Origin: a virus
Strand: one strand, 5' to 3'
IMG/VR virus record: IMGVR_UViG_3300027746_000095
Span: 1-23,836 of that record
DNA length: 23,836 nt
Numbering within the stretch: position 1 is the stretch's first letter; each line of letters starts with the position of its first letter. Made by a program: the position numbers and the translations under genes. Positions 10,732-18,302 of this stretch are shown in pieces. A model generated the notes under the pieces. That model saw only the letters and a program-made list of their open reading frames with translations. It ran no database searches and was not told the DNA's origin.

Positions 10732-10768
10732 GTTTGTGTTTTCATAGTTAAATAGGTTTAAGTATTAG

Positions 10769-10800
10769 AATCCCCATTGGTCATGCCGGTGGGGATTTTT
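10769..10800 (+). terminator. Rho-independent terminator
   Basis: AATCCCCATTGG (10769-10780) pairs with CCGGTGGGGATT (10786-10797), a 12-bp stem including two G-U pairs, with loop TCATG and a run of T ending at 10800. It closes the lysis/phosphoesterase unit and insulates it from promoter P1 about 50 bases downstream. Confidence 0.92.
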
Positions 10801-10850
10801 GTATTATAAGACCATTAAATAAATAATTAAAATAATTTTATATAAAGTTA

Positions 10851-10878
10851 TTGTTTTAAAATAAAAGCATTACATTTG
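10851..10878 (+). promoter_or_regulatory. Bacteroidota-type promoter P1
   Basis: TTG at 10851-10853, 17 bases, then TACATTTG at 10871-10878, matching the Bacteroidota sigma-ABfr consensus (TTTG near -33, TAnnTTTG near -7). Transcription would start near 10883-10885, about 16 bases before the ATG at 10901. The location right after a terminator and before the recombination genes suggests the host RNA polymerase starts the early operon here. Confidence 0.8.
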
Positions 10879-10900
10879 CATATACTTAAACAAATAACAA

Positions 10901-13440: not shown

Positions 13441-13725
13441 ATGAATATTTTAGATAAGGTTTTGGCAGTTATGCCATATAGATTTACAATACATTATTTT
13501 AGAAAAATTGCAAAAGATAAATATGAAATTTCAATTGATACTTTAACATCAAGAGAAACAAAAGATTATCTTACTACAAATTGTATTCAAACAAATATGT
13601 TTAATTATAAAAAAATTAATAATGACTTAGTGGATGAAAATGAAATTAATAAGGCAATTAAATTACTAAAATCAACAAATAATTATAAAATTTTACAAAG
13701 AGTAAATGATTGGAATGAGATTTAA
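13441..13725 (+). CDS. Hypothetical protein, unusually AT-rich
   Basis: A 94-residue soluble basic protein starting MNILDKVLAVMPYRFTIHYF; no domain recognised. Reading the gene I find no CpG dinucleotide in 285 bases, unlike its neighbours, and it is very rich in AAA/AAT/ATT codons. It is flanked upstream by a short gap and downstream by promoter P2, which overlaps its last bases (TTG at 13710-13712). This suggests a recently acquired accessory gene at an operon end. Confidence 0.6.
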   Translation: MNILDKVLAVMPYRFTIHYFRKIAKDKYEISIDTLTSRETKDYLTTNCIQTNMFNYKKINNDLVDENEINKAIKLLKSTNNYKILQRVNDWNEI

Positions 13726-13738
13726 ATTATTATATTTG
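13710..13738 (+). promoter_or_regulatory. Bacteroidota-type promoter P2
   Basis: TTG at 13710-13712, 18 bases, then TATATTTG at 13731-13738, a full match to the TAnnTTTG box. Start of transcription would fall at about 13743-13745, exactly where the first hairpin of the structured leader begins. It would drive the replication genes, or a separate small RNA. Confidence 0.8.
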
Positions 13739-13743
13739 TAAAC

Positions 13744-13840
13744 AATCGCCTCTCGACATTATAGCGATTAAAGATTTTAAGTGCCTTATAATGAAATTGG
13801 AAGTCGAGAGCCAGTGGATTTGTAAGGCATTTATTTTTTA
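13744..13840 (+). ncRNA. Candidate structured RNA / leader with kissing hairpins
   Basis: Three inverted repeats are interleaved. Hairpin 1: AATCGC (13744-13749) with GCGATT (13764-13769), with CTCTCGAC (13750-13757) in its loop. Hairpin 2: AAGTGCCTTATA (13779-13790) with TGTAAGGCATTT (13821-13832), 12 pairs with two G-U, capped by ATTGG/CCAGT (13796-13800 with 13811-13815) whose loop presents GTCGAGAG (13803-13810). The two loops are perfectly complementary over eight bases, so they can kiss, or the 8-bp helix can replace the hairpins. A T-rich run (13831-13839) follows hairpin 2. The element starts at the predicted P2 start and ends 12 bases before the replication gene, so it is either a short RNA with its own terminator or a regulatory leader. 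No known RNA family is assigned. Confidence 0.6.
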
Positions 13841-13851
13841 TAAAAATTAAT

Positions 13852-14565
13852 ATGGAAAAAGAAGCATTTTATTTCCCACATTTTTGCAACGCAAGACATG
13901 ATAGGAAAATCCGTAGGTTGCGCAAGGAACTTGGAACGGAGGGTTATGGCATTTATTTTATGCTATTAGAAACGTTAAGAGAACAACAAGACTTAATGTA
14001 TCCATTAGAGGATTTAGATTTGTTAGCCGAAGAGTTTGGGGTATCTGAAGCAAAGGTAAGAGTGGCTATTTGTAACTACGGATTATTTGAGATTGACGAA
14101 GAACAAAAATTCTTTAGTCCTAAGATGTTGGTTTACTTAGAGCCATATTTTAAGATGAAAGAACAAAGGAAAATTGCTGGTCAAAAGAGCGCAGACAAGA
14201 GAAGAGGAATAGAAATTTCAACGACCGTTCAACAACCGTTCAACGACCGTTCAACAAAGGAAAGTAAAGTAAAGGAAAGTAAAGAAAAGGAAAGTAAAGT
14301 AAATGAAATAAAAGAAGAGTATAATTTGGTCGAAATGCTTTCTCCCTATATTGCTGATTTAGGAATTGAATACACTAATTTTTATTCTTATTGGTCAGAG
14401 AAAAATAACAAAGGGAAAGAACGATGGCAAGTAGAAAAGTTTTTTGATATTAGCAGACGAATAAATACCTGGTTAACTAACGCAAACAAATTTAGCAATA
14501 ATGGAAATACAACTGAGAAACTTGGAACAAGTGCCGCAAGAATGGAAGCATTACGGAAGTGGTAA
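13852..14565 (+). CDS. Replisome-organizer-like protein, DUF4373/Lin1244-type N-terminus
   Basis: A 237-residue protein. Residues 1-105 match the DUF4373 (Lin1244/Lin1753) pattern: MEKEAFYFPHFCNARHDRKI, GTEGYGIYFMLLE, a winged-helix-like LLAEEFGVSEAKVR and CNYGLFEID. Residues about 105-152 are a basic, low-complexity linker with KESKV repeats. The C-terminal part (about 155-237) includes FYSYWSEKN and RINTWLTNANKF, similar to the end of phage replication-initiation proteins. Such proteins bind the origin and bring in helicase loaders. It is the first gene behind P2 and its leader, and two tandem DNA repeat arrays lie in the linker-coding part, suggesting the origin lies within the gene as in lambda O. 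It overlaps the next gene by 65 bases. Confidence 0.8.
   Translation: MEKEAFYFPHFCNARHDRKIRRLRKELGTEGYGIYFMLLETLREQQDLMYPLEDLDLLAEEFGVSEAKVRVAICNYGLFEIDEEQKFFSPKMLVYLEPYFKMKEQRKIAGQKSADKRRGIEISTTVQQPFNDRSTKESKVKESKEKESKVNEIKEEYNLVEMLSPYIADLGIEYTNFYSYWSEKNNKGKERWQVEKFFDISRRINTWLTNANKFSNNGNTTEKLGTSAARMEALRKW
14221..14253 (+). repeat. Three tandem 11-bp repeats, iteron candidates
   Basis: ACGACCGTTCA (14221-14231), ACAACCGTTCA (14232-14242) and ACGACCGTTCA (14243-14253) are contiguous with one mismatch in the middle copy. Eleven is not a multiple of three, so each copy is read in a different frame (TTVQ, QPFN, DRS). Protein selection alone would not maintain this, which points to a DNA-level role, for example initiator binding at an origin. 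Confidence 0.7.
14256..14300 (+). repeat. Three tandem 15-bp purine-rich repeats
   Basis: AAAGGAAAGTAAAGT occurs at 14256-14270, with one changed base at 14271-14285 (last base A), and again at 14286-14300. A decayed fourth copy may follow. It encodes KESKV/KESKE/KESKV and gives one strand that is entirely purine and T-poor. Together with the adjoining 11-bp array it could serve as an unwinding region, or simply be linker expansion by slippage. Confidence 0.7.
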
Positions 14566-15247
14566 TGCCTTAGCAATAAAACAAGCACAAAGCGCCATTA
14601 CTTTGCGTGTAAGAAACGAAGAAGATATAAAGCAAGCATTACGTTACTCGATGCTTTTGGTTGGCTTACGAGGAAGCAATTTACCAACTGAAGAAGAAAA
14701 GTTTGTATTAACCAATTTTGTTAAATCTAATTTTGGTAATAATACTTGCGAGGAGATAAAACTTGCCTTTGAAATGGCAGTCGCTGGCAAGTTAAATATG
14801 GATTCTAAATGCTATGAGAATTTTTCTTGTGAATACTTTGGAAGAATTATGAGTGCTTATCAGGAGTATGTTAGACAAGAAATGAAAAACTTACCTAAAC
14901 CAATAGAGCCAGTGAAAGAAAAACCAAGTGACCAAGAATTAAAGAAGCAAGCCATTGACACGGCTAATGAATATGCAAATCAGATTAGATTCTGCGAGAA
15001 GAACGATAAAAAATTTACGTTTATCGCTGGAGGCTTATCAATTTTATTCGATTACTTGGAACAATTTAAGATTCCAACCATATCAAAAGAAGAACGAATC
15101 GAACTTTGGAATAAATATTCTACGATTCAAGATATTGAAGAACGTAAAATGCACTGCAAAACTCAAGGTTATATTAAATTTATCAATAGTTTAGTTACAT
15201 TTGATTGTCATATTGATAATGATGGAACTATTAAACCAAACGAATAA
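14501..15247 (+). CDS. Probable replication partner protein, function unknown
   Basis: A 248-residue soluble protein starting MEIQLRNLEQVPQEWKHYGSG. It is mainly helical, with a conserved-looking FEMAVAGKLN and FSCEYFGRIMSAYQEYV in the middle, a charged linker near residue 130, and a helical C-terminal part including ILFDYLEQFKIPTISKEERI. No Walker motif is present, so it is not an ATPase-type helicase loader. Position after the replisome-organizer gene resembles that of helicase loaders or initiator accessory proteins; that role is an inference. It overlaps the previous gene by 65 bases and joins the methyltransferase gene through a single-base overlap (TAATG). Confidence 0.65.
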   Translation: MEIQLRNLEQVPQEWKHYGSGNALAIKQAQSAITLRVRNEEDIKQALRYSMLLVGLRGSNLPTEEEKFVLTNFVKSNFGNNTCEEIKLAFEMAVAGKLNMDSKCYENFSCEYFGRIMSAYQEYVRQEMKNLPKPIEPVKEKPSDQELKKQAIDTANEYANQIRFCEKNDKKFTFIAGGLSILFDYLEQFKIPTISKEERIELWNKYSTIQDIEERKMHCKTQGYIKFINSLVTFDCHIDNDGTIKPNE

Positions 15248-17707: not shown

Positions 17708-17793
17708 TTTGGGAAGCCATTGCGGTAGGAATTATCGAAGTGGCTTTTATCGTTTATTTTATTTTTGAGATAATCAGAAAATCAAAGGAATGA
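17668..17793 (+). CDS. Tiny single-span membrane protein (32-41 aa)
   Basis: An ORF ending at the ATGA junction with the sigma-like gene. From ATG 17668 it is 41 residues; from GTG 17695 it is 32. The hydrophobic core (LIWEAIAVGIIEVAFIVYFI) is a clear membrane segment. It fills the 82-base gap between the DUF3310 gene and the next gene. The exact stop/start overlap supports it being translated. Function unknown. Confidence 0.5.
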   Translation: MVFESGIRKVERLIWEAIAVGIIEVAFIVYFIFEIIRKSKE

Positions 17794-18302
17794 CCAGGTC
17801 GCAAATCATTGAGGAACTTTATAATTCAAAGGAGATTAAACAAGCCTTGATGAAAATGCACCCAGCAAATTTAAGGGAAGAACTCAAGCAAGAAATGTTT
17901 GTGAATCTTTGTTCTATAACCGAAGACAAATTTTGGTCGATTTATAATAACAACGGAAGCAATGGATTAAAGTTTTGGCTTGTCAGATGTATGCTAAATA
18001 TGATTTATAGTACTGGCATGAATCAGCCATTCTTCAGACATTTTAGAGCAAAGTATGAATCAATAGATGGATTAGAAGATTTAGTGCAGATTGAGGATGA
18101 ATCTAAGGAATATAAAGAAAAGCTATTTAATCGAGTGGAGGTAGCAAGAAAAGAATTATCCTGGTATGAAGATATGCTTCTCGATACTTATGTCGAATTA
18201 AATTTTAATCAAACGGAGATTTCGAGAAAGACTGGCATTCCGTATATGTCCATAGTCAAAACGATTTCAAACATTAAAAAGAAAATAAGGGATGAAGCCT
18301 GA
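17790..18302 (+). CDS. Sigma-70/ECF-like transcription factor
   Basis: A 170-residue protein with a two-part sigma-like layout. Residues about 28-75 resemble region 2 (ANLREELKQEMFVNLCSI, KFWLVRCMLNMIYST). After a charged linker, residues about 123-168 form a region-4-like helix-turn-helix: LSWYEDMLLDTYVELNFNQ, then TEISRKTGIPYMSIVKTISN. Phage proteins of this kind could direct RNA polymerase to late promoters or bind DNA as regulators. The lack of host-type promoters in front of the late genes in this window fits such a switch, but this is inference. It shares an ATGA with the tiny membrane ORF before it and overlaps the next gene by 11 bases. Confidence 0.7.
   Translation: MTRSQIIEELYNSKEIKQALMKMHPANLREELKQEMFVNLCSITEDKFWSIYNNNGSNGLKFWLVRCMLNMIYSTGMNQPFFRHFRAKYESIDGLEDLVQIEDESKEYKEKLFNRVEVARKELSWYEDMLLDTYVELNFNQTEISRKTGIPYMSIVKTISNIKKKIRDEA

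Follow-up and report, generated by a model that had tools for sequence, protein, structure and literature searches.

We describe a leader RNA with two kissing hairpins at the head of the replication operon of a phage and its relatives. With a probability of roughly 0.55, judging from sequence and comparison, we read it as a cis-acting transcription attenuator of this operon, built from a kissing-loop terminator, that probably meters the amount of replication protein made. At the sequence level, the promoter, the two hairpins, the covarying kissing helix, the U-tract, the constant position and the exchange as a cassette are all established.

The window, meaning the whole stretch of 23,836 nt (24 kb) that was analyzed, is a linear IMG/VR virus contig carrying genes for a portal, a tail fibre, an ERF recombinase, a replication initiator, a cytosine methyltransferase and a terminase. 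It probably comes from a phage of a Bacteroidetes host, since its promoters fit TAnnTTTG, the Bacteroidetes sigma -7 consensus quoted in PMC7366714, and its gene order resembles that of the cultured Nonlabens phage P12024S. The TATATTTG box at 13731-13738 matches this consensus, with a TTG at 13710-13712 in the -33 area, and points to a transcription start at ~13744. The features of the region are listed below; the leader of the window belongs to type A, one of the two main sequence types described further on.

13731..13738, + strand, -7 box TATATTTG of a Bacteroidetes-type promoter (sequence and homologues)
13744..13769, + strand, hairpin H1, at the inferred transcription start, with a 6-bp stem (13744-13749 / 13764-13769) and a 14-nt loop
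13750..13757, + strand, 5′ kissing strand CTCTCGAC in the H1 loop, 8/8 pairs in all 13 distinct type A sequences
13770..13777, + strand, A/T-rich linker between H1 and H2, part of the 11-12-nt type A linker
~13778..13833, + strand, terminator-like hairpin H2, outer stem 13778-13791 / 13820-13833, inner stem 13796-13800 / 13811-13815
13803..13810, + strand, 3′ kissing strand GTCGAGAG in the H2 loop (type A covariation)
13831..13841, + strand, U-rich tract behind H2, T-rich in the DNA (sequence)
13852..14565, + strand, replication initiator (phrog_2562, Pfam Lin1244_N), the first gene behind the leader
14217..14257, + strand, putative origin formed by 11-bp iterons of the TTCAACGACCG type within the initiator gene

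The first-pass annotation had the outline right: two hairpins whose loops hold perfectly complementary 8-mers, exactly CTCTCGAC and GTCGAGAG, with H1 beginning at the predicted start and a U-rich run behind the second stem. What it counted as three crossing helices are in fact two nested hairpins and a single crossing (kissing) helix. H2 consists of an outer stem, an internal loop, an inner 5-bp stem and a 10-nt loop, and was not picked up by a simple terminator scan with a loop limit of 3-8. The leader folds better than its shuffled versions (z -3.08, 1/200 shuffles as good) and, as in intrinsic-terminator attenuators, a stable hairpin followed by a U-tract lies between the promoter and the first gene.

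Other features of the window were recorded along the way. The region 10765-10880 holds a very stable hairpin with a T-tract (z -5.4), then a TACATTTG promoter box at 10871 that is probably the start of the early operon. A weak sigma-factor-like gene (phrog_1740) lies at 17790-18302, and P12024S has a sigma-70 region 2 gene similarly placed. Within the initiator gene, the stretch 14217-14315 carries the iterons (spacing 11) and then three 15-nt A/G-rich repeats, forming a lambda-O-like putative origin.

The arrangement had been called unlikely by chance, which is wrong as stated: in first-order Markov sequences, pairs of hairpins whose loops contain perfectly complementary 8-mers number 0.98 per 24 kb, and further pairs occur in the window itself, at 15180/15211-15212 and 22760/22795. 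A stricter scan, combining a promoter box, an H1 loop able to kiss that of a T-tract hairpin and an ATG behind, yielded a single site in the window, the leader at 13731-13852, against 0-2 matches in 3.6-5.2 Mb of Markov sequence (~0.2-0.4 per Mb). Only three matches, all evident relatives of the element, were found in other virus contigs amounting to 2 Mb (both strands), a set chosen for holding both window 8-mers as a spaced pair. A chance origin is ruled out by covariation, though the pattern is not rare on sequence alone.

To follow the element in homologues, 80 IMG/VR loci were fetched by the initiator protein alone. In all 80 cases an element lies upstream of the initiator, 55 of type B (covariance model R1) and 25 of type A (R2, including the window). 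The whole records examined contain one element each, except for a 59-kb contig, IMGVR_UViG_3300027969_000114, with two elements and two different initiators (L207, L273), which appears to join two 30-kb phages from another sample (29671 + 29624 bases).

Only the nested stems were part of the covariance models, which makes the kissing helix an independent check on alignments made with them. Compensatory change in homologues was the test named in the first-pass annotation, and the helix passed it strongly. In type A, all 8 kissing pairs are formed in 100% of the 13 distinct sequences and 5 of the 8 have changed on both sides; the H1 stem has 97.3% of its cells paired, with two-sided changes in 3/6 pairs. 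In type B, the 7 core pairs are all formed in 55/55 distinct sequences (first in 40, then in 55), and 3 of them show changes on both sides. The score of the type B helix was reached by 0/500 shuffles and exceeds that of all slid controls. Since such shuffle statistics are inflated by the relatedness of the sequences, the count of different helices is the stronger argument. Altogether, ~25 distinct kissing duplexes were collected, one or two of them possibly chance matches, and every new variant from independently anchored loci is 7/7 complementary over the core. The predicted energies of the type A and B duplexes range from -9.6 to -12.4 kcal/mol. The leader thus has what characterizes a kissing-loop RNA, a loop-loop helix backed by compensatory changes.

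The type B linker is 16-21 nt long and contains a conserved GGTT/AACC-like mini-hairpin, with at least 4 bp in 59/61 distinct sequences vs 34% of shuffled linkers. The strand-marking count is modest, with 42 G-U vs 24 A-C stem cells. Two type A loci, L003 and L023, differ by two compensated pairs in the kissing helix and by nothing else. General diversifying selection on this helix finds no support, as the helix changes more slowly than the other stems in type B and just one type A comparison has changes confined to it.

The architecture extends beyond these two types. Loci anchored on two other initiators carry type B in 56/80 and 38/59 cases, and a single one has type A. Where no model matched, inspection of the loci revealed type C (GTCGAGA/TCTCGAC, and GTTGTGAG/CTCACAAC in L362) and type D (GTTGCAG/CTGCAAC, and GTCGCAT/ATGCGAC in L389), which have the same architecture, unrelated sequence and compensated changes in both. 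A fourth initiator anchor gave more alleles, including type-A-like elements with a covarying H1 stem. Shuffled upstream regions gave 0/132 matches, and no sequence outside the helices is common to different alleles. In a candidate type E, the partner of the terminator loop is a 5′ strand of the leader, and the variants form a compensated pair (AACACAC/GTGTGTT in L342, CAGCAC/GTGCTG in L352). Similar kissing-terminator elements (GTAGCCG/CGGCTAC; GTAGCAG/CTGCTAC) lie 590-790 nt upstream of weak initiator relatives in L451-L455.

Across all alleles, one kissing strand is nearly always GU-initial and purine-rich (GUNNNAG in B, GUNNNNAG in A, with most of C and D alike), a regularity suggesting that the loop-loop helix is structurally constrained. 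Shine-Dalgarno mimicry by GUAGGAGU was rejected, as it fails for GUGGUAG, GUCAGAG and others. A leader peptide was likewise discarded: the short reading frame in type A H2 (MPxxN...-like) has lost its start codon in L047 and is absent in type B.

Cultured phages were searched with the architecture scanner. Flavobacterium phage 11b has one element, with its promoter box at 33621 and an 8-bp kissing helix (CGGGCAGG/CCTGCCCG); Polaribacter phages Danklef_1 and Freya_1 have one 7-bp element each in the 6-kb stretches examined; and Croceibacter phage P2559S has one at 33901, with 6-bp kissing, for which a lower threshold was needed. All four head the initiator operon. Behind the Freya_1 element lie a replisome-organiser-like gene and then one for a DnaC-like loader. 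The elements of Danklef_1, P2559S and 11b are separated by a small gene from the initiator or initiator-like gene, the assignment in 11b resting on phrog_19415, which also matches the window initiator. No element was detected by scanning P12024S, 6H and B40-8. A search of INPHARED by type B sequence gave no real match, and it was the architecture scanner that found other alleles there. The commonest type B pattern is absent from GTDB contigs, and the sole cellular relative of the initiator, in a Balneola MAG, is without types A and B. At locus L461 (33955-34194, NC_018276 gp48), the leader element contains the annotated start of gp48, which more likely begins at the ATG at 34001, directly after the U-tract.

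The position of the element is as constant as its architecture. A -7-like box precedes H1 at a near-constant distance in 92/93 homologous elements (the strict TANNTTTG in 67/93), and the first ATG follows 4-21 nt behind the element in 109/111 distinct loci. This spacing leaves no room for a second promoter, so that the first gene would be read through the terminator. The genes behind the element vary, from a window-type initiator to small inserted genes and then the initiator, and other elements precede initiators with relatives in several PHROG groups, behind which a DnaB helicase gene often lies. The RNA therefore belongs to the operon head and not to one gene, and a first gene that varies behind a constant RNA points to control at transcription, not of one ribosome-binding site. 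A hairpin at the 5′ terminus and a U-tract within ~20 nt of the ATG would also fit a structure that shields the 5′ end, or one that regulates the first gene at translation by covering its start region. Such a role is improbable because the same RNA precedes different genes, small inserted ones included, and it has no need for a U-tract.

Alleles are exchanged as cassettes. In L003 (type A) and L049 (type B), the upstream gene, promoter and initiator are alike whereas the intervening RNAs are unrelated, types A and B being swapped exactly between the same promoter and start codon. The window element is identical to that of L016, the initiator genes of those two being 84% identical; compared with L003, the initiator gene of the window is 96% identical and the element just 85%. 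These exact swap points, between start site and ATG, also bear on a DNA-level role, in which a cruciform or single-stranded origin structure would act beside the iterons. The adjoining initiator and iterons and the interleaved inverted repeats would suit such a structure, which is nonetheless highly improbable given the swap boundaries, the fixed promoter distance and the T-tract on the coding strand.

Could the element be a stand-alone small RNA of the phage, ~95 nt long with its own promoter and terminator, that acts in trans? The kissing fold would then give compactness and stability, and low read-through would express the initiator. Promoter, 5′-terminal hairpin and intrinsic terminator do bound a compact fixed unit, present in one copy per record. 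However, the element always heads the replication operon with an ATG 4-21 nt behind, as a trans-acting gene need not; the loop 8-mers of the leader are not enriched elsewhere in the window; and the alleles share no sequence outside the helices. We consider a small RNA possible but doubtful.

The lack of shared sequence is also awkward for a checkpoint of terminator plus leader that a phage or host protein would relieve by acting on the polymerase or the RNA, the kissing RNA serving as its loading site. This reading takes as models the terminated short transcript before the lambda late genes, or antitermination RNAs. It accounts for the same order of promoter, short RNA, terminator and operon, and for a leader placed between the early recombination genes and the initiator. 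Yet alleles with a common architecture and almost no common sequence sit badly with one sequence-specific protein, and no candidate antiterminator gene was identified, which makes the checkpoint distinctly unlikely.

We favor an attenuator with pairing-dependent read-through because the conserved parts are the promoter, the kissing and the terminator, and not the sequence. Of the three proposals in the first-pass annotation, an attenuator controlling the replication operon is thus the best supported. Its idea of a switch to one long helix is unsupported, as the complementary stretch is no longer than 8 bp and we saw no alternative helix that is conserved; nor did inspection of type B reveal a mutually exclusive antiterminator helix. 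We infer the synthesis of the RNA, termination at H2, the origin of initiator mRNA in read-through, and the direction of the effect. RNA polymerase would start at the TAnnTTTG promoter and transcribe H1, the linker and H2, whose stem and U-tract would form an intrinsic terminator ending just ahead of the initiator ATG. The H2 loop strand would exit the polymerase ahead of the H2 3′ arm and be free to pair with the H1 loop. The loop-loop helix would then set the termination efficiency of H2, and with it the amount of initiator mRNA and the transcription through the iterons inside the initiator gene. We lean toward kissing that delays the terminator and favors read-through, so that an occupant of the H1 loop would turn the operon off; kissing that stabilizes the terminator is nearly as likely.

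A coaxial kissing rod has the base of H1 at one end and that of H2 at the other, and because the linker is short (11-12 nt in A), intramolecular kissing requires bending. Intermolecular kissing between leaders of different genome copies would leave the same covariation and is possible, and pairing across copies would make the leader a copy-control or immunity RNA. In such a scheme, which we hold to be rather unlikely, the terminated leader would act in trans, its loops kissing nascent leaders of the same allele on other genomes and promoting their termination. If true, this would provide copy-number sensing or immunity against co-infecting relatives with no separate antisense gene, and the swapped alleles and kissing-only changes (L003 vs L023) would be specificity groups.

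Several known systems resemble the leader in part. The attenuators of pT181 repC and pIP501 repR are leaders before a rep gene that end in an intrinsic terminator and in which loop-loop contacts matter. The phage element shares with them an intrinsic-terminator leader directly ahead of an initiator operon, but they rely on a counter-transcribed antisense RNA together with an alternative antiterminator helix, whereas here the complementarity lies within the leader itself. No conserved antisense promoter emerged, a minus-strand TANNTTTG being found within 250 nt downstream in 31/138 distinct elements vs 30 shuffled. In lambda, pR′, the 6S RNA and tR′ give a promoter, a short terminated RNA and then a phage operon, much like the promoter, short RNA, terminator-like hairpin and operon found here; the lambda short RNA, however, is without conserved kissing hairpins, precedes late genes and is relieved by Q through DNA. 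In ColE1 RNA I and RNA II, loops of seven to eight nucleotides pair fully and loop variants stay matched, but the partners are two RNAs from opposite strands, while here both loops lie in one transcript and the second hairpin is the terminator. The phi29 pRNA is also a phage RNA with two complementary loops able to join copies in trans. Our element differs from it in having no Rfam match, a terminator end and a place before a replication operon instead of packaging genes, a position that argues against a phi29-type packaging role. The guanidine-II riboswitch likewise places a pair of neighboring, loop-kissing hairpins in a leader, but its loops are short, conserved ACGR loops, unlike the variable 8-14-nt loops followed by a terminator and without Rfam match described here.

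The Rfam 15 covariance models gave no match at gathering score in the whole window, and a search of Rfam with types A and B returned sub-threshold chance matches only. The layout was not found in literature, mostly outside subscription journals, on kissing loops, phage leaders, attenuation and structured RNAs of Bacteroidetes or metagenomes, and the available parts of PMC8040213 and PMC2864571 mention no such element. Within Rfam 15 and the literature searched, the earlier statement that no described family has this layout holds. Phage leader RNAs of this kind, with a conserved architecture and a sequence exchanged wholesale, appear to form a class not described before.

To our knowledge, little regulation is known in phages of Flavobacterium relatives, and the leader points to RNA-level control of replication initiation across them. 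The presence of the element in the cultured phages 11b, Freya, Danklef and P2559S makes the hypothesis testable at the bench. If true, attenuation in these phages would be governed by a loop-loop contact in cis, without an alternative antiterminator helix.
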